Virus record (IMG/VR): IMGVR_UViG_3300042507_005969
Span: 1 to 26,162 of that record
DNA from: a virus
Strand: one strand, 5' to 3'
DNA length: 26,162 bases
The notes below the pieces were generated by a model, which saw nothing but the letters and a program-made list of their open reading frames with translations, made no database searches and was not told where the DNA came from. The translations under genes and the position numbers were made by a program. Below, piece after piece: positions 20,040 to 26,162 of the stretch; the stretch's first letter is position 1, and the number at the start of each line of letters is the position of its first letter.

Positions 20040-21416
20040 ATGGTATCATTTAATAAACTGTCACAGTACGGTCTTCCGTTTCAATTAAAAGTAATTAATC
20101 AACTCTTAACAAATAAAGAGTTTCTTCTAGACATTAGAGATAGTATTCAAGAAGAATACTTTGACAATCAAAGTTTACAGTGGATAGTAACTAGGACTTT
20201 GAAATACTTTGACCAGTATCACACAAATCCTACATTAGAAGCACTTCAAATTGAAGTTAAAAAACTAGAAAATGATGTATTAAAAACAGCTGTTATTGAA
20301 CAGTTGAGAGAATCTTACAGAATAGAAAACAATGATGCTGAATATGTAAGACAAGAATTCAGTGGATTTTGTAAAAATCAACAATTGAAAAAAGCATTGT
20401 TAACTTCTGTTGATTTACTTCAATCAGGAATGTATGATGACATTAGAATTTTGATTGACAGTGCTTTAAAAGCAGGAATGGAAAAAAACATTGGTCATGA
20501 ATATTCTAAAGACGTTGAATCAAGATACAGACCAGATGCTAGAGAAATAGTTCCTACTCCTTGGGACGACATAAATAAACTCTTAATGGGAGGTTTAGGA
20601 GGAGGAGACTTAGGTTTAGTATTTGGCAATCCTGGTGGAGGTAAAAGTTGGATGATGGTTGCTTTAGCAGGTCATGCTGTTAAAATGGGCTTTAACGTTG
20701 TTTATTATACTTTAGAATTAGGAGAAGTTTATGTAGGAAAAAGATTTGACGCTTTCTTTGCTGATGAACCTGTAAATCAAATTCATCTTCACAGAAAAAA
20801 AGTAGAACAAGAAATTAATAAATTAGAAGGTACTTTGGTTGTAAAAGAATTTAGTATGGGTAAAGCAACAGTTCAAACTCTTGAAGCTCACATTCAACAA
20901 TTGCGAAACATGGACCTAAAACCAGACCTAATCATTATTGATTATATCGATCTTTTGCGGTCTCCTAAGCGATCTTACGACAGAAAAGACGAAATTGACG
21001 ACGTTTATGTAGCTATAAAAGGCCTAGCGCGAGATTTGAATACTCCTATTTGGAGTGTAAGTCAAGTAAATAGAGCAGGTGCACAAGATGACATTATTCA
21101 AGGCGACAAAGCAGCAGGAAGTTACGATAAAATCATGATTTCAGATTTTTGTTTAAGCTTGAGCCGTAAAAAAGAAGACAAAGTAAATGGCACTGGAAGA
21201 CTTCACGTAATGAAAAATCGTTATGGAATGGATGGTTTAACTTACAATGCAAAAGTTGACACTCATACTGGTCACATTGAATTAGATGACAACAATGAAG
21301 GCATAGAAATTAGTCCTTACAAGCAAATAAATATTACAAAACCTGCTGAAAATTGGGACAATTCTGACTTAACAAAACTCAGAAATAAGTTTTCAGATCT
21401 TGCAGATTTACTGTAA
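20040..21416 (+). CDS. DnaB-like replicative helicase (gp41-like)
   Basis: The start is set at ATG 20040 (458 residues), because the AGTTATG leader shared with gp32-like and queC precedes it; a longer frame from 19971 would overlap the previous gene. The protein unwinds DNA at the fork as a hexamer. The N-terminal 150 residues are helical, as in DnaB/gp41, with SQYGLPFQLKVINQLLTN at the start. The RecA-type motor has Walker A GNPGGGKS with K202, Walker B IIIDYIDLL with D301, the sensor SQVNRAG, and the AGSYDKIMISDFCLSLSRK loop. Compared with T4 gp41 (475 residues) it is nearly full length. It closes the replication cluster and is followed after a short spacer by the ribonucleotide reductase. 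Confidence 0.9.
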   Translation: MVSFNKLSQYGLPFQLKVINQLLTNKEFLLDIRDSIQEEYFDNQSLQWIVTRTLKYFDQYHTNPTLEALQIEVKKLENDVLKTAVIEQLRESYRIENNDAEYVRQEFSGFCKNQQLKKALLTSVDLLQSGMYDDIRILIDSALKAGMEKNIGHEYSKDVESRYRPDAREIVPTPWDDINKLLMGGLGGGDLGLVFGNPGGGKSWMMVALAGHAVKMGFNVVYYTLELGEVYVGKRFDAFFADEPVNQIHLHRKKVEQEINKLEGTLVVKEFSMGKATVQTLEAHIQQLRNMDLKPDLIIIDYIDLLRSPKRSYDRKDEIDDVYVAIKGLARDLNTPIWSVSQVNRAGAQDDIIQGDKAAGSYDKIMISDFCLSLSRKKEDKVNGTGRLHVMKNRYGMDGLTYNAKVDTHTGHIELDDNNEGIEISPYKQINITKPAENWDNSDLTKLRNKFSDLADLL

Positions 21417-21424
21417 AAATTAGA

Positions 21425-21432
21425 ATATTTAT
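21425..21432 (+). promoter_or_regulatory. ATATTTAT motif before ribonucleotide reductase gene
   Basis: Exact copy of the octamer, 19 bases before the ATG at 21452. It is the only clear copy before a metabolic gene, suggesting that the reductase is transcribed with the tail genes or from a mixed promoter. Confidence 0.35.
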
Positions 21433-21451
21433 AAACCCATAAAATAAGATT

Positions 21452-23302
21452 ATGAACACATCACAAAGTATATTGTCGGATATTACGACGTACATGAAGT
21501 ACGCTCGTCACATTCCAGAAAAAGCTCGTCGCGAGACCTGGGAAGAAATTGTAACACGAAATAAAGAAATGCATATTAGCAGATTTCCTCAATTAGAAGA
21601 AGAAATCAATGAAGTATACAAAATGGTATACGATAAAAAAATTCTTCCTTCAATGAGAAGTTTACAATTTGCTGGAAAGCCTGCTGACATCAACAATGCT
21701 CGAATGTTTAACTGTAGTTTCTTGCCTGTAGATGATTTTAGGTCATTTTCAGAAGCTATGTTTTTACTTTTGAGTGGCTGTGGAGTTGGTTTTAGTGTAC
21801 AAAACCACCATGTAGAACAGTTGCCTGAAATTAAAATTCCAACTCGTGAAAAACGTTATTTAATTAATGACAGTATTGAAGGTTGGGCTGATGCAGTTCA
21901 CATGTTAATGAAAGCTTACTTGAAAGGCGGTGCTCGTCCTCGTTTTGACTTTAGAGACATTAGAGCTAAAGGAGAACAATTAGTAACAGCAGGTGGAAAA
22001 GCACCAGGACCTGAACCTTTGAAAGAAGTATTGTTTCAAGTACAAAAAATACTTGACAGGAAACAAAATGGAGAAAAATTAACTTCATTAGAATGTCATG
22101 ATATTCTTTGTCATTTAGCTGATGCTGTATTGTCTGGAGGCATTCGTAGAGCAGCTTTGATTAGTTTGTTTGATTTCAACGATGAAGACATGTTGACTTG
22201 TAAGTTTGGTAACTGGTGGGAAAATAATCCTCAACGTGGACGAGCTAACAACTCAGCTGTAATTCTTCGCCATAAAATTACTGAAGACGAATTTATGAGT
22301 CTTTGGGAAAAAGTTGAAGCATCAAATGCAGGTGAACCTGGATTTTTATTTAGCAATGACAAAGACTATGGAACTAATCCATGTGCTGAAATTGCTTTGA
22401 GGCCTTATCAATTCTGTAATTTGTGTGAAATTAACGCTACTGATGTTGAAAGTCAAGAAGATTTCAATGCTAGAGCTAAAGCAGCTGCGTTTATTGGTAC
22501 ATTACAAGCTAGTTACACTGATTTCCATTATTTAAGAGACATTTGGAAAAAAACAACTGAAAAAGATGCTTTGTTAGGAGTTGGAATTACTGGTATAGCT
22601 AGTGGAAAACTAGACAAAATCAACTTGAAACAAGGTGCTAAAGCAGCTAAAGAAGAAAATGCTCGTGTAGCCGCATTAATTGGAATCAACAAAGCAGCTC
22701 GTGTAACTACAGTTAAACCATCTGGAACAAGTTCACTTGTATTAGGCTGTTCAAGTGGAATTCATGCTTGGCACGATAATTACTATATTCGTCGAATTAG
22801 GGTAGGTAAAAATGAGTCAATTTATACTTACTTGAATCTTTATCATTCTGAACTAGTAGAGGATGACATTTTCAAACCTACTCAACAAGCAGTAATTTCA
22901 GTTCCTCAATTAGCCCCAGAAGGTGCTAAAACTAGAGCTGAGTCTACATTTGATTTGTTGGAAAGAACTAAAAGATTCAATGTTGAGTGGGTAAGAGCAG
23001 GTCATCGTAAAGGCGAAAACTACAATAACGTGTCTTGTACAATCAACATCAAACAAGGTGAATGGAAAGAAGTAGGCCAATGGATGTGGAACAACAGAGA
23101 ACACTATTCAGCTATGTCTTGTTTACCGGAAGACTTAGGAAGTTACAAGCAAGCTCCTTTCGAGTCAATTACAGAAGAACAATACAATGAAATGAGTAAA
23201 ACATTACATAATATTGATCTTAGAAATGTAGTAGAGTTAACTGATAATACTACATTGGTTGATAACGTAGCTTGCGCTGGAGGCGCGTGTGAAATAGTAT
23301 AA
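21452..23302 (+). CDS. nrdJ: Class II (adenosylcobalamin-dependent) monomeric ribonucleotide reductase
   Basis: A 616-residue enzyme that reduces ribonucleotides to deoxyribonucleotides for phage DNA synthesis, using coenzyme B12 to make the thiyl radical and needing no oxygen or small subunit. It resembles the monomeric Lactobacillus leichmannii enzyme: MFNCSFLP with the first redox cysteine, SGCGVGFSVQ, the NPCAEIALRPYQFCNLCEINAT active site with the radical cysteine and its partner, and VKPSGTSSLVLGCSSGIHA. The C-terminus CAGGACEIV gives a Cys-x4-Cys pair (608, 613) just like the CEGGAC tail of the Lactobacillus enzyme that reloads the active site. At 616 residues it is shorter than the 739 of that enzyme. 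No ATP-cone is visible. It follows the replication genes directly and ends before a terminator. Confidence 0.9.
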   Translation: MNTSQSILSDITTYMKYARHIPEKARRETWEEIVTRNKEMHISRFPQLEEEINEVYKMVYDKKILPSMRSLQFAGKPADINNARMFNCSFLPVDDFRSFSEAMFLLLSGCGVGFSVQNHHVEQLPEIKIPTREKRYLINDSIEGWADAVHMLMKAYLKGGARPRFDFRDIRAKGEQLVTAGGKAPGPEPLKEVLFQVQKILDRKQNGEKLTSLECHDILCHLADAVLSGGIRRAALISLFDFNDEDMLTCKFGNWWENNPQRGRANNSAVILRHKITEDEFMSLWEKVEASNAGEPGFLFSNDKDYGTNPCAEIALRPYQFCNLCEINATDVESQEDFNARAKAAAFIGTLQASYTDFHYLRDIWKKTTEKDALLGVGITGIASGKLDKINLKQGAKAAKEENARVAALIGINKAARVTTVKPSGTSSLVLGCSSGIHAWHDNYYIRRIRVGKNESIYTYLNLYHSELVEDDIFKPTQQAVISVPQLAPEGAKTRAESTFDLLERTKRFNVEWVRAGHRKGENYNNVSCTINIKQGEWKEVGQWMWNNREHYSAMSCLPEDLGSYKQAPFESITEEQYNEMSKTLHNIDLRNVVELTDNTTLVDNVACAGGACEIV

Positions 23303-23308
23303 TAATAT

Positions 23309-23340
23309 TAAGGGGAATCTTTGGTTCCCCTTATTTTATT
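23309..23340 (+). terminator. Rho-independent terminator after the reductase gene
   Basis: TAAGGGGAA (23309-23317) pairs with TTCCCCTTA (23325-23333), a 9-bp stem with a 7-base loop, followed by an AT-rich, T-rich tail. Confidence 0.85.
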
Positions 23341-23341
23341 T

Positions 23342-23353
23342 TTTATAATATAG
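23342..23353 (+). promoter_or_regulatory. Candidate early/middle promoter box before DpdA-like gene
   Basis: TTTATAATATAG followed by TTATG, immediately after the reductase terminator; same class as before gp32-like and queC. Confidence 0.4.
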
Positions 23354-23355
23354 TT

Positions 23356-24132
23356 ATGTTAATAAGTCATGAAGTTTCTCTAGCAATGCTAGAAAAAAGT
23401 TTTACATTTAATGATTATGATTATTGTTTGCCTACTTTTTTACACCATAAACAATATTGGGATCATTTTGTTGAAGCAAGAAAACAAAATCGTTTCATCA
23501 TAATGGACAATGGATTATTTGAAGGTGAAATAGTAGATGAAAAATCTCTATTACACGCCTACAACACAATTAAACCAGATGCATTTATTACACCAGACAG
23601 TTGGAATGATGCTGATGCAACTTGGGATAATTATGTAAAATGGAAAAATAAAGTAGATCCTAGTAAAATTATGGTTGTAATTCAAGCTCAAACAATGTTT
23701 GAAGCAGAAGATTTATATGAAAAGCTAGTAAAAGATGGAGTAAAATACATTGGTTTCAATCACTTAGGTCAATTTTACAACGATTTTAGCTGTCATGAAC
23801 ATCCTGAAACCCAAAAGACACTAGGTCGCATTGAATTTATTAGTTTCTTAAAAGAAACAAATAGACTAAGTAAAGACGTTCATCATCATTTGTTAGGATG
23901 TAATCAAGCAGAAGAATTTAAGTATTATCCAAGTGTTTATTTTCCTGAAATTAAAACATTAGACACATCAAACCCAGTTACTTTAGCTTTTGAAGGAATT
24001 GACTATGAATTACACAGAAATATTTTAACTAAACCAAAAATTAAAGTAGAAGATATATTTAAATCAGAAGACAAAGAAAAAATAAATTTAGCAGAAAAAA
24101 ACATCAACACATTTAAAAAATTAATTTCATAA
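23356..24132 (+). CDS. dpdA: TGT-fold DNA guanine transglycosylase, DpdA-like
   Basis: A 258-residue protein that fits a shortened tRNA-guanine transglycosylase barrel. FIIMDNGLFEG (D51) sits where TGT has DSGGFQ with its general-base Asp. ITPDS (D81) sits where the base-binding Asp lies. VVIQAQ (Q110) matches GIVQG, and GFNHLGQF the GYAVGGL turn. HHLLGCNQAEEF followed by EIKTLDTSNP (D203) matches the MGVGKPDDIVGAVERG ... MFDCVLPTR end, with D203 at the nucleophile position. The Cys cluster that binds zinc in bacterial TGT is absent (only C24, C146 and C182). DpdA proteins of phages use this fold to exchange guanine in DNA for preQ0-type bases. The presence of queC 1.9 kb downstream supports a DNA rather than tRNA role. 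Alternative: an unrelated TIM-barrel enzyme. Confidence 0.72.
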   Translation: MLISHEVSLAMLEKSFTFNDYDYCLPTFLHHKQYWDHFVEARKQNRFIIMDNGLFEGEIVDEKSLLHAYNTIKPDAFITPDSWNDADATWDNYVKWKNKVDPSKIMVVIQAQTMFEAEDLYEKLVKDGVKYIGFNHLGQFYNDFSCHEHPETQKTLGRIEFISFLKETNRLSKDVHHHLLGCNQAEEFKYYPSVYFPEIKTLDTSNPVTLAFEGIDYELHRNILTKPKIKVEDIFKSEDKEKINLAEKNINTFKKLIS

Positions 24133-24133
24133 T

Positions 24134-24331
24134 ATGACACAGTTAACAGCTTACGATTTAAAAAGAAAGGAAAAAGACGTACCTTTCACAGAAGTTACAA
24201 TTGAAAAAACCAAACGTGGTGGTTACATCGCTAAAGGCACTAACGTTTACGGAAACAAAATGTCTGGCATTTTGTCTGAAGCAAAAGCCTTAGAAGCTAT
24301 TGCAGCAGGAATTGCTAAACAAGGTTTCTAA
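24134..24331 (+). CDS. Unrecognised small basic protein, 65 aa
   Basis: The ATG starts one base after the DpdA-like stop codon and the gene ends before a terminator, so the two are almost surely cotranscribed. The product is basic (about ten Lys) with a short strand-turn-strand region (FTEVTIEKTKRGGYIAKGTNVYGNK) and a C-terminal Ala-rich helix (SEAKALEAIAAGIAKQGF). This layout is compatible with a small nucleic-acid-binding or protein-partner fold, but I recognise no family. Because it is locked to the DpdA-like gene it may assist base exchange, for example by binding DNA; that is inference from context only. Confidence 0.7.
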   Translation: MTQLTAYDLKRKEKDVPFTEVTIEKTKRGGYIAKGTNVYGNKMSGILSEAKALEAIAAGIAKQGF

Positions 24332-24348
24332 ATTGTCAATTTTTCATT

Positions 24349-24379
24349 AAGGAGCTTGGTTTTTCCAAGCTCTTTTTTT
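24349..24379 (+). terminator. Rho-independent terminator after the DpdA-like operon
   Basis: GAGCTTGG (24352-24359) pairs with CCAAGCTC (24365-24372) around a TTTTT loop, followed by seven T residues. Its GCTTGG-T-rich loop-CCAAGC core is the same as in the terminator at 15231-15250. Confidence 0.88.
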
Positions 24380-24390
24380 ATCATATTAAC
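24377..24390 (+). promoter_or_regulatory. Weak candidate early/middle box
   Basis: TTTATCATATTAAC directly before the ATG at 24391. It partly overlaps the terminator T-run and matches the TTTATTATnATA class only loosely. Confidence 0.2.
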
Positions 24391-24609
24391 ATGCAAGAAG
24401 AAAAATTTTTATCGCTTTATGATTATTTAGGTTATGCTGCTGGCCCTAAATTAGGTAAAGAAGTAGCAAATTTAGCTGCTGAAGAAAAAGTTGGATATCA
24501 ACTTAAGATAGTAAAAAATAAAGCATACTCAGGAGAAATAATGATGTATCCAAAATCATTTTTGGATAAGTTTTTTAAGGGAGACGTTAACGACGAATTA
24601 CCATTTTAA
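24391..24609 (+). CDS. Unrecognised small protein, 72 aa, with SSB-tail-like C-terminus
   Basis: First gene after the terminator; start at ATG 24391. The body is a helical, mildly acidic and basic mix (LSLYDYLGYAAGPKLGKEVANLAAEEKVGYQLKIV), then a short strand-turn (NKAYSGEIMMYP) and a helix SFLDKFFKG. The final residues DVNDELPF form an acidic stretch ending in Pro-Phe, as in the interaction tails of SSB proteins and of the gp32-like protein in this window (DEDDDMPF). This may mean it binds proteins that dock on SSB tails, or the match may be chance. No family is recognised. It lies three bases before the next gene, so it is part of a small-gene operon running to 25248. Confidence 0.65.
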   Translation: MQEEKFLSLYDYLGYAAGPKLGKEVANLAAEEKVGYQLKIVKNKAYSGEIMMYPKSFLDKFFKGDVNDELPF

Positions 24610-24611
24610 TT

Positions 24612-24866
24612 ATGGATGAATTATTAGTTTTTGACGAAGAAAGTTGGAATAACATGTTTAATATGTTAGTATCTCCTGATGAAAGTTCACGAAAATTAGC
24701 AATAGGACTATTAAGTAATATTAATTATACTAATAAAGAACAAATGTCTTTATTTGAAGATCAAATGCATCTTGTTTTAGCACATAAAAATGTATCTTCA
24801 GAAGAAAAAGGCAAAATTATACACACTTATTTTACAGCATTAGGAAAACAACATGGGAACACTTAA
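24612..24866 (+). CDS. Unrecognised small protein, 84 aa, predicted all-helical
   Basis: Starts two bases after the 72-residue gene. The protein is acidic and appears all-helical, with LVFDEESWNNMFNMLVSPDESSRKLAIGLLSNINY followed by two further helices (FEDQMHLVLAHKN, EEKGKIIHTYFTALGKQ). The SPDESSRKLAIGLL segment, a helix after a 'duplex' of Ser-Pro-Asp-Glu, recalls HEAT-like or armadillo-type repeats that count positions along a stack. Its last codons overlap the next gene by 14 bases, indicating translational coupling. No motif for catalysis is visible and no function can be given; small helical proteins in this position often modulate host factors. Confidence 0.6.
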   Translation: MDELLVFDEESWNNMFNMLVSPDESSRKLAIGLLSNINYTNKEQMSLFEDQMHLVLAHKNVSSEEKGKIIHTYFTALGKQHGNT

Positions 24867-25248
24867 TAATATAAGTTCACTTATAAATGGTGCAACTTCA
24901 CATAGTATGTGGGCAGGAACAAGTAATACTGTTACATCAACTGGTTCTCCTTATGCAGGCTATTATGATACGAGTACTTTTTATGAAAATCAAGCAACTA
25001 TTACACTTACAGGTCAAGTAATACATGATTTAGGAGAAGATGAAATTTCATTTCAACATGAAATTGCTGTGTTGAAAGTAACAAGAAATGAATCAGGAAA
25101 AATTGTAAAAAGTAAAATGATTAAAACATTTTGGGTTGAAACACACAATCAAGGAAGTATTGATTATGCAGCCAGCAAAGACCCAGAAGTAAGTAAATTT
25201 GAACCTGAAGAAATTATTATTAAAACATTAAGAACAATAAAATTATAA
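24853..25248 (+). CDS. Unrecognised protein, 131 aa
   Basis: Begins 14 bases inside the preceding gene at ATG 24853. The first 45 residues are rich in Ser, Thr, Gly and Asn (SSLINGATSHSMWAGTSNT, STGSPYAGYYDTS), after which follows a beta-rich domain: ATITLTGQVIHDL, ISFQHEIAVLKVTRNESGKIV and KMIKTFWVETHNQG, closing with EEIIIKTLRTIKL. The low-complexity head plus strand-rich body is typical of small phage structural or accessory proteins but I recognise no family. The stop is followed by the 8-codon queC-like fragment and a hairpin, so it ends the small-gene operon. No role can be assigned. Confidence 0.6.
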   Translation: MGTLNNISSLINGATSHSMWAGTSNTVTSTGSPYAGYYDTSTFYENQATITLTGQVIHDLGEDEISFQHEIAVLKVTRNESGKIVKSKMIKTFWVETHNQGSIDYAASKDPEVSKFEPEEIIIKTLRTIKL

Positions 25249-25250
25249 AA

Positions 25251-25277
25251 ATGAATAAACAAGCCGTATTATTTTAA
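25251..25277 (+). pseudogene. 8-codon ORF resembling the broken 5' end of a queC gene
   Basis: ATG AAT AAA then Gln-Ala-Val-Leu-Phe and a TAA stop: the peptide MNKQAVLF. QueC proteins start with a short basic head and an Ala-Val-Val/Leu strand leading into the PP-loop SGG-[LQ]-DS. The intact queC at 26021 reads MNTNKKYAVLSLSGG. The resemblance, the location just before an HNH endonuclease, and the fact that the fragment ends where the conserved PP-loop should begin suggest a leftover from insertion. It is short, so chance cannot be excluded. Confidence 0.35.
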
Positions 25278-25289
25278 AGATTTATGTTT

Positions 25290-25326
25290 TTTTATGGAGG
25301 TTATGATATTTATAACCGCCATAAAA
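25290..25326 (+). promoter_or_regulatory. 15-bp imperfect hairpin with ATATTTAT in its loop, upstream of the HNH gene
   Basis: TTTTATGGAGGTTAT (25290-25304) pairs with ATAACCGCCATAAAA (25312-25326) with one A-G mismatch around a 7-base loop. The loop and the start of the 3' arm hold ATATTTAT (25306-25313), 23 bases before the HNH ATG. No T-run follows directly, so a terminator is less likely than a control element. A transcript started inside it would lack the 5' arm. Confidence 0.5.
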
Positions 25327-25336
25327 TTATATTAAT

Positions 25337-25996
25337 ATGCCTAATAAAGAATATATGAAAGAGTATAGGAGAAATAAAAATCCTAAACTCAAAGAAAAAG
25401 AAGAACTTGCACAACAAGAAAAAAAACGTTGTACAAAATGTTTAGAAATAAAACCTTTTAATTCTTTCACTCCTCAAAAAGCAGGATTTATGGGATTAAA
25501 ATCTCAATGTAAGGAGTGTGATTGTTTATATGATAAACATTTCCAATCTAAAACCAACTTTAGATCAGAACGAGATAAAACAGATAAAGCTAAACAATAT
25601 AGAAAAAATTATATAGCTGAAAACTTAGACTGGTGGAGAAAATATGAAAGAGAATATAGATATAATCGTAGAAGAGAAGATATGTTTTTTAAAATAAAAG
25701 GAAACCTATCAGGACGACTATCTGATTTAATAAATAAAAGAAATTTATCTACTAATACTTTTGAACTTATAGGATGTGATAGAGAAACTTTTTTACAATA
25801 TATTGAAAAACAATTTGTAGAAGGAATGACATGGGAAAATTATGGTTTAAAAGGATGGCATATAGATCACATAATTCCTTTATCTTCTTTTGATTTAACT
25901 AACGAAGATGAAGTAAAAAAAGCATGTTATTATACTAATTTACAACCTCTTTGGTGGGAAGATAATTTAAAAAAAGGAAATAAACTTGGAAATTAA
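25337..25996 (+). CDS. HNH homing endonuclease with zinc-finger N-terminus
   Basis: A 219-residue nuclease. The N-terminal region has two Cys pairs (C32-C35 and C58-C61), a zinc-binding module shared by many phage HNH proteins, followed by a strongly basic stretch rich in Arg, Lys and Tyr. The C-terminal HNH core begins GWHIDHIIPL (H175, D177, H178), followed by TNLQPLW (N201) and a final DNLKKGNK (N210), so all expected metal- and phosphate-binding positions seem intact. It cuts one or both strands of target DNA lacking the element. It lies between a queC-like 5' fragment (25251-25277) and the intact queC (26021), which suggests insertion into or next to that gene. The gene is highly AT- and Lys-rich compared with conserved neighbours. 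Confidence 0.9.
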   Translation: MPNKEYMKEYRRNKNPKLKEKEELAQQEKKRCTKCLEIKPFNSFTPQKAGFMGLKSQCKECDCLYDKHFQSKTNFRSERDKTDKAKQYRKNYIAENLDWWRKYEREYRYNRRREDMFFKIKGNLSGRLSDLINKRNLSTNTFELIGCDRETFLQYIEKQFVEGMTWENYGLKGWHIDHIIPLSSFDLTNEDEVKKACYYTNLQPLWWEDNLKKGNKLGN

Positions 25997-26003
25997 AAAA
26001 AGA

Positions 26004-26018
26004 TTTATTATCATAAAG
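26004..26018 (+). promoter_or_regulatory. Candidate early/middle promoter box before queC
   Basis: TTTATTATCATAAAG followed by TTATG at the start codon (26021). This is the cleanest match to the box before gp32-like (17011) and helicase (20017). Confidence 0.45.
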
Positions 26019-26020
26019 TT

Positions 26021-26162
26021 ATGAATACAAATAAGAAATATGCCGTGCTTAGTCTGTCAGGAGGATTAGATTCAAGTACTTTATTATTACATTTACTTGC
26101 CAATGGGTATGAGGTAACTGCCCTTTCTTTTGATTATGGACAAAAACATAGAATTGAACTAG
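26021..26162 (+). CDS. queC: 7-cyano-7-deazaguanine synthase QueC, N-terminal fragment (runs off window)
   Basis: Only the first 47 residues are inside the window; the frame is open at the right edge. QueC converts 7-carboxy-7-deazaguanine to preQ0 with ATP and ammonia. The visible PP-loop motif SGGLDSS (residues 13-19) binds ATP, and the second strand continues into SFDYGQKHRIEL, as in E. coli QueC (TFDYGQRHRAEI). The gene follows the HNH endonuclease by 24 bases and has its own promoter-like box. Together with the DpdA-like gene it points to a 7-deazaguanine DNA modification pathway; other pathway genes (folE, queD, queE) would be expected to the right if the phage makes preQ0 itself. Confidence 0.93.
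   Translation, partial: MNTNKKYAVLSLSGGLDSSTLLLHLLANGYEVTALSFDYGQKHRIEL

Follow-up and report, generated by a model that had tools for sequence, protein, structure and literature searches.

A DpdA-like gene and the beginning of queC

The stretch analysed here, hereafter the window, is the complete 26,162-base virus record IMGVR_UViG_3300042507_005969 of IMG/VR. Its right end carries a gene for a 258-amino-acid DpdA-like protein (dpdA) and, 1.9 kb further on, the beginning of queC, the contig ending 47 codons into this second gene (Table 1). An earlier note, made from the letters of the window, had described positions 23356-26162 as a candidate 7-deazaguanine DNA modification locus; its gene order is all present as it had stated, and so is the distance between dpdA and queC. 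The queC fragment matches PF06508 with 45.2 bits (44.7 bits in another scan), which passes the Pfam cut-off. We regard the locus as a real DpdA-type DNA modification locus of an already known kind of system; the window very probably encodes the enzyme that inserts the base, together with the first of the base-synthesis genes, of such a phage 7-deazaguanine system. The basis is the predicted fold of the protein, its invariant residues, the gene neighbourhood of its relatives, and its homology to two phage proteins, one annotated as DpdA and one from a phage whose DNA was reported to contain dADG. From these we infer the reaction (base exchange), the parts played by the residues, the identity of the base and the protection that it would confer.

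Table 1. Features at the right end of the window (ORF, open reading frame)
Feature	Coordinates	Strand	Remarks
Intrinsic-terminator-like hairpin, 11 pairs	23309..23333	+	between ribonucleotide reductase gene and dpdA
DpdA-like DNA guanine transglycosylase (predicted), 258 aa	23356..24132	+	TGT/DpdA fold, invariant residues, homologues in CP220 and immuto phages
65-aa ORF directly 3' of dpdA	24134..24331	+	present in only 5 loci, including the window
Intrinsic-terminator-like hairpin, 11 pairs	24349..24375	+	would close a dpdA + 65-aa unit
p72, 72-aa conserved companion	24391..24609	+	in 42 loci, mostly between dpdA and queC
84-aa ORF	24612..24866	+	in 5 loci only, window among them
p131, 131-aa ORF	24853..25248	+	18 loci; relatives often adjoin queC, as in immuto phage too
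HNH/endonuclease VII-like ORF	25337..25996	+	PHROG 1035, 4.1e-20; Pfam HNH, 0.0075 (below cut-off)
queC, first 47 codons, cut by contig end	26021..26162	+	PF06508 above Pfam cut-off

Sequence searches with the 258-amino-acid protein found nothing convincing in the PDB, nothing in NCBIfam and nothing above the Pfam cut-off, and its only family matches below E 0.01 are phrog_19058 (1.1e-32) and phrog_20335, both function-unknown PHROGs. An AlphaFold2 model built from 74 sequences (pLDDT 93.6, pTM 0.91) is more informative. Its best match in VIA-align is 1iq8 (Z 16.1, 225 residues at 3.3 Å), and the fold is likewise that of 7ui4, ‘DNA preQ0 insertase DpdA’ (Z 15.3); every one of the best 50 matches listed is a tRNA-guanine transglycosylase (TGT) or a DpdA, and the first six matches in Foldseek are all TGTs (best E 1.6e-6). 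The TGT fold that the earlier note had assigned is thus borne out by the model, and none of its three aspartates (D51, D81 and D203) varies among the 74 aligned relatives, in which Y34, N52, E56, P80, V108, R158, H178, L180, G181, E187 and S205 are invariant as well. The aspartates lie at or just past the ends of predicted strands 48-50, 76-78 and 199-203; by analogy with TGT, we take D203 to be the nucleophile and D51 and D81 to bind the base. TGTs have a C-terminal zinc site motif, which the note had reported as absent here: by eye, no C-x-C-x2-C is present in the sequence, and there is no cysteine among the invariant or near-invariant columns of the alignment.

Several results weigh against this assignment. 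TIM barrels are alike in general, 889 of 996 chains reaching Z 8 in VIA-align; PF01702, the Pfam TGT family, matches none of seven records at E ≤ 10; hhalign of the family against E. coli TGT and against the DpdA of phage 9g gave non-significant probabilities of 4.5 and 3.6, respectively; and the best PDB profile match of the family is a DpdA, but with an E of only 0.27. The profile link to TGT and DpdA for which the earlier note had proposed a search is absent at a significant level, the resemblance to both being found in the predicted structure instead. The lack of a sequence-level link and the breadth of TIM-barrel matches are what would be expected of an unrelated TIM-barrel enzyme whose place near queC is accidental, in which case QueC would serve the host or carry out its own PP-loop reaction. 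The chance of this seems negligible to us, as the best 50 structural matches are TGTs and a DpdA, the aspartates do not vary and preQ0 genes accompany the family in 78 of 94 loci (see below).

Homologues in isolated phages point to a DpdA as well. In tblastn, 18 of 50,697 phage records match the protein, 14 of them from Campylobacter phages (33-35% identity) and four from Flavobacterium phages of the immuto type (30%). The four immuto homologues carry the annotation DNA guanine transglycosylase, DpdA, and it is on this annotation that the match to immuto DpdA (QQO91982.1; E 2e-22, 98% coverage, 30% identity) rests; this protein resembles ours in its size of about 260 amino acids, its full-length homology and the pathway genes that accompany it. 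The product of gp056 in Campylobacter phage CP220 (Firehammervirus), annotated as a hypothetical protein, is also a full-length homologue (33.5% identity). When a relative (L045; handles of this form denote loci) was used as the query, weak matches were added in Cellulophaga, Bacillus, Chryseobacterium and Weizmannia phages, for 30 records in total. Among the 599 stretches of IMG/VR matching the search patterns, at least 579 are relatives, of which the best 80 were retained for analysis, while in species genomes nine of 217 pattern matches are relatives, each from a record with MAG in its title. A short-DpdA family known in few isolated phages is thereby widened to hundreds of uncultured phage contigs. 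In a quick tree of DpdA with some long branches, immuto and CP220 form a small group outside the clade of the window.

The divergent variant suggested by the earlier note is therefore divergent in sequence, since the Pfam TGT family does not match it, but it belongs to a large family that probably already has a name. This family may be the DpdA3 subfamily, which is characterised by complete guanine replacement and includes Firehammervirus and immuto proteins; Cui et al. (2023, NAR) reportedly resolved the question of the DpdA-less Campylobacter phages by naming DpdA3. Among the papers listed in text searches for this name, none concerned the subject. Hutinet 2019, in the passage concerned, grouped the Campylobacter phages with those without DpdA (PMC6884629).

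The preQ0 pathway in relatives and the predicted base

Of the preQ0 genes, the window contains only the beginning of queC and no folE, queD or queE, which is a point against the proposed system, and the evidence on base synthesis comes from relatives. We compared 94 dpdA loci, a number that includes the window and some near duplicates, and called genes in the available flank with our own profiles. queC is in view in 77 loci, and at least one of queC, queD, queE and folE in 78. With the many relatives in IMG/VR, the 77 loci show that the arrangement in the window exceeds a chance occurrence. Two of them, L004 and L005, are collinear with the window, encode a DpdA about 75% identical to its protein and extend beyond its end. 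From queC onwards, their order is queC, HPRT, thyX (in L005), queD, queE, a thioesterase-fold gene, folE and a dCTP-deaminase-like gene, the families in L005 having been assigned by scans of its proteins. Looking to the right for folE, queD and queE, as the earlier note had proposed, finds all three in these relatives, and the pairing of a DpdA-like enzyme with preQ0 genes on which it had relied is supported by their complete folE-queD-queE-queC sets and by the homologue annotated as DpdA.

The remaining 16 of the 94 loci, in which the profiles find no preQ0 gene, must be set against this. In ten of them the sequence stops no more than 1.1 kb past dpdA. CP220 (L007) is counted among the 16, yet an annotated QueD lies in view there, so the profiles miss distant members. 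Three distant relatives (L092, L094 and L095), with 4 to 10 kb on each side, have no preQ0 gene even at E 0.1.

As for the base, no QueF, formyltransferase or GATase_6 match was found by search in the 176-kb record of L005, although the immuto record matched the QueF and formyltransferase profiles and that of NP1 matched GATase_6. Six IMG/VR records and CP220 gave weak sub-cut-off QueF matches, which were left uncounted. One of the two in G004 and those in G005, G006 and G009 coincide with the coordinates of folE, and FolE and QueF share a fold; the others are the second match in G004 and those in G007, G008 and CP220. Given the absence of these three matches in L005, dPreQ0 would be the simplest product for the window phage. 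Immuto differs in this respect, as it has QueF and a formyltransferase-like gene. Alternatively, the product may be dADG, since the DNA of CP220, which bears a homologue, and that of CPt10 have been described as containing it in the relevant passage of PMC8306585.

These results also bear on a second alternative, in which the window protein, sharing the fold of TGT (Z of about 16), would be a tRNA enzyme, not a DNA enzyme, and would raise tRNA queuosine in infection. Against it, bacterial TGT uses preQ1, and L005 has no QueF match in its 176-kb record. In its favour, a queuosine boost was considered, in a passage of Hutinet 2019 (PMC6884629), for phages with preQ0 genes and without DpdA. However, the window protein is shorter than E. 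coli TGT (258 versus 375 amino acids), has neither the zinc motif nor a PF01702 match, and has a homologue in a phage for which dADG was reported, in the part cited above, in DNA (PMC8306585). Such a role is, in our opinion, very unlikely.

The QueC proteins of these loci are unusual. The part of PMC13329287 that deals with QueC gives as canonical motifs SGGxDS, YxQxHxxE, VPxRN, YPDC and the zinc motif C(x)8CxxCxxC; it regards the last as the distinguishing mark of QueC and mentions no clusters without it other than those of LarE and GMP synthase. The fragment in the window shows SGGLDS and YGQKHRIE only. Among 65 distinct QueC proteins, SGGxDS is kept in 64, YxQxHxxE and VPxRN in all and YPDC in 61, but the first zinc cysteine is aligned with serine in 65 of 65, and CxxC is absent in all 63 in which that region is visible. 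In L005 (11899-12777) and the 64 other distinct zinc-less proteins, a conserved TNTSYKP...SDYKSASSVER-like motif stands in place of the cysteines. Immuto QueC, 62% identical to that of L005, is likewise without zinc cysteines, as are the QueCs of phage MMDA13 and of a Stenotrophomonas phage; those of CP220 and VpKK5 have them. QueF uses preQ0, and because immuto pairs a zinc-less QueC with QueF, by analogy such a QueC may well still make preQ0. This QueC family without a zinc site would also show which part of the fold the chemistry needs.

In the mechanism that we propose, FolE, QueD, QueE and QueC would make preQ0 from GTP, the genes of the first three being predicted, like an HPRT gene, just past the contig end and within about 5 kb of queC. 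The short DpdA would then exchange guanine in DNA for a preQ0-type base, its aspartates presumably acting as in TGT, and the modified DNA would resist host nucleases.

A phosphoribosyltransferase in DpdA loci

Exchange by a DpdA-type enzyme frees one guanine per inserted base, as is established for TGT. At the GC content of L005 (0.32), about 57,000 guanines would be freed as base per 176-kb genome copy if all were exchanged. A purine phosphoribosyltransferase (PRT) is present in 30 of the 38 loci that have both a dpdA-family gene and folE in view, or in 28 of 36 without two near duplicates that carry it (L071 of L063 and L087 of L048), and 21 of these 30 PRTs lie within 75 bases of folE. In the clade of the window (L003, L004, L005 and L009-L012), an HPRT gene is the next queried gene past queC, 115 to 459 bases behind it and not at folE; L008 is cut at this point.

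Two distantly related types of PRT are found across all loci, 25 long, HPRT-type proteins and 12 shorter ones, the 37 including near duplicates, L016 (like L015), and L094 (HPRT 7 kb from dpdA, folE not in view). They were split by length (more than 150 amino acids or less) after a first profile had mixed both, and NCBIfam scans of eight agree with the split, all below the curated cut-offs. The long type matches the HGPRTase profile (97.6 to 147.6 bits in four scanned, with a cut-off of 150), and that of L005 matches solved HPRTs. The short type matches a xanthine PRT profile below its cut-off in the five scanned, and that of immuto matches solved Gpt enzymes. On the quick DpdA tree, with its long branches, the states long, short and none need at least nine changes, which indicates repeated gain, loss or exchange of the gene. 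The lysine and tryptophan with which E. coli Gpt binds 6-oxopurines are kept in 19 and 20, respectively, of 21 short-type PRTs.

With the short-type PRT of immuto as the query, 40 of the 50,697 phage records match. Thirty-six of them fall in groups of which one or more members have a pathway gene (immuto 4, Vibrio 7, Sphingomonas 2, Stenotrophomonas 3, Pseudomonas 2, Cellulophaga 5, Brevundimonas 2 and PA5oct-like Pseudomonas 11), and the other four are unannotated records. The pathway gene is adjacent to the PRT in immuto, MaInes and MIJ3 and stands elsewhere in the genome in phiST. HPRT-type matches in phage-filed records (13 and 18; H79-H91 and H132-H149) are mostly unannotated and many are short; some may be bacterial DNA, and they were not used.

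In other phages, namely Sphingomonas phage MMDA13, VpKK5, one Stenotrophomonas phage and PSASB_03, PRT and FolE are joined in one ORF. The FolE part starts at residue 116, 117 and 118 in the first three, respectively, and their N-terminal part has a phosphoribosyl pyrophosphate motif together with the Gpt lysine and tryptophan. Residues 1-119 of the MMDA13 protein (the last four belonging to FolE) match 37 records, and all matches in annotated non-immuto records overlap a GTP cyclohydrolase gene, in whole or in part. A Gpt-like PRT domain stands N-terminal to FolE in L122 (5989-6876), L123 (5998-6900), L124 (5754-6647), L129 (4911-5804) and L120 (1583-2470); where such fused ORFs are annotated, they bear the GTP cyclohydrolase label only. 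The Pfam PRT model matches the fused domains weakly (0.0096 in one of three and no match in two), and the case for a fused PRT rests on tblastn and the aligned motifs. The fusion phages inspected share the order queE, queC, queD, folE, dpdA, and two of them are placed in Queuovirinae, the subfamily of 9g, so they form one broad lineage apart from that of the window. Phage 9g itself resembles our relatives in that its DpdA stands beside folE, queD, queE and queC, but its FolE domain begins at residue 14, without room for a PRT domain. Eight loci with a 9g-type DpdA (L108 and L115-L121) had been taken as a PRT-less control (0 of 8 by hidden Markov models), but L120 proved to be a PRT-FolE fusion. 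The models miss the fused form, as inspection of three control FolE ORFs showed, and five of the eight are 9g itself or have a DpdA 95-100% identical to that of 9g, which makes this a weak control for PRT absence.

A recycling role would account for these patterns. On the evidence of the relatives, a guanine PRT would convert the released guanine to GMP, which host kinases would return to GTP for FolE, and the removal of guanine would drive the exchange onward. This would explain the neighbouring PRT gene, its two forms and its fusion to FolE. We give about even chances to the proposal that a guanine PRT is an unrecognised component of phage 7-deazaguanine systems, recruited at least twice (as HPRT and Gpt types), fused to FolE in 9g-like phages, recycling ejected guanine to GTP and pulling the exchange to complete replacement, its HPRT form being predicted to the right of queC in the window phage. 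The recycling itself we infer, and the patterns would look no different if the enzyme salvaged host guanine in general. Other observations also count against it. The position of HPRT after queC in the clade of the window suits the idea less well than the wider pattern does. Eight of the 38 folE-bearing loci have no PRT in view (L028, cut 2 bases past folE, L023, L025, L034, L061, L072, L078 and L084), and the association is not universal. Additionally, the PRT of MIJ3 is without the Gpt lysine and tryptophan, and that of CP220, encoded elsewhere in the genome and annotated as phosphoribosyl transferase, has R and S at two checked positions, so not all of these proteins need be guanine enzymes. 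CP220 also differs in that its pathway genes are scattered.

The same genes could be taken as signs of another route, in which the base is first made into a nucleotide by PRT and kinases and is then incorporated by the polymerase, the DpdA-like protein doing something else. A nucleotide-first proposal for Campylobacter phages is mentioned in one passage of Hutinet 2019 (PMC6884629), and a nucleotide kinase gene comes next after the dpdA homologue of CP220, immuto having one two genes past its own. Purine PRTs, moreover, occur in many of the loci, and in the clade of the window the HPRT gene comes after queC, whose product completes base synthesis, and not after folE. However, that proposal predates any known DpdA in these phages, and CP220 has a homologue of the TGT-fold protein. 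Most PRTs near the pathway lie by folE, the fusions in 9g-like phages are to FolE, the GTP-using step, and the Gpt residues are largely retained. We therefore regard the nucleotide-first route as unlikely and continue to favour base exchange by the short DpdA.

Neither the PRT association nor the zinc-less QueC was found described in the literature examined. The word phosphoribosyl is missing from the main text of the MMDA13 paper and from that of Hutinet 2019 (PMC6884629). In the part of PMC9025141 that uses it, the term phosphoribosyltransferase denotes a nicotinate PRT, and it also occurs in PMC8617998 and PMC9508795, which by their titles deal with staphylococcal biofilm and E. coli queuosine, respectively. 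The PRT offers a testable account of how a phage replaces very many guanines and, as it is fused in some phages to the first enzyme of the pathway, recycling could be tested with one purified protein.

Companion genes and other signals in the window

The earlier note had left the small genes between dpdA and queC without a role. Two of them, p72 and p131, are conserved companions, and a third ORF looks mobile. For p72, an AlphaFold2 model has a pLDDT of 75.5, and Foldseek gave no match under E 0.1. The HNH ORF is missing at its position in L003-L005, a homologue stands just before queC in L030, and this ORF is probably a mobile insertion outside the modification pathway. Homing-endonuclease-like ORFs occur among conserved genes at 1048-1782 and 25337-25996 of the window and at 9080-9604 of L005, the assignments being GIY-YIG-like by eye, and HNH by PHROG and by a sub-cut-off Pfam match.

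Immediately upstream of dpdA there is an adenosylcobalamin-type ribonucleotide reductase gene (family match below the curated cut-off). Six intrinsic-terminator-like sites, several of them overlapping, were found in 21000-26162, compared with a mean of 1.6 in shuffled sequences. No Rfam match at gathering scores and no tRNA gene were found in the window.

Around dpdA in the relatives, the largest single-linkage cluster of unqueried ORFs has a small thioredoxin-like representative with a CGPC motif (by eye); it is present in 45 loci at a median of 1.9 kb from the dpdA start, for instance in L083 (11524-11766). In L025 (14210-14943) and L061 (5646-6698), IscU-like, IscA-like and, in L061, ferredoxin-like ORFs stand beside folE (by eye), and both loci also have queE, which encodes a radical-SAM enzyme.

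Finally, TATnATA or TATATTA occurs at most 27 bases upstream of 7 of 25 chosen gene starts of the window, compared with 18 of 575 ATGs; the pattern was picked after inspection, and one of the 25 positions (20019) is not a start codon. It is possibly a phage promoter lying very near the start codon. A TATTTATA-like string also repeats, by eye, upstream of genes of the window.

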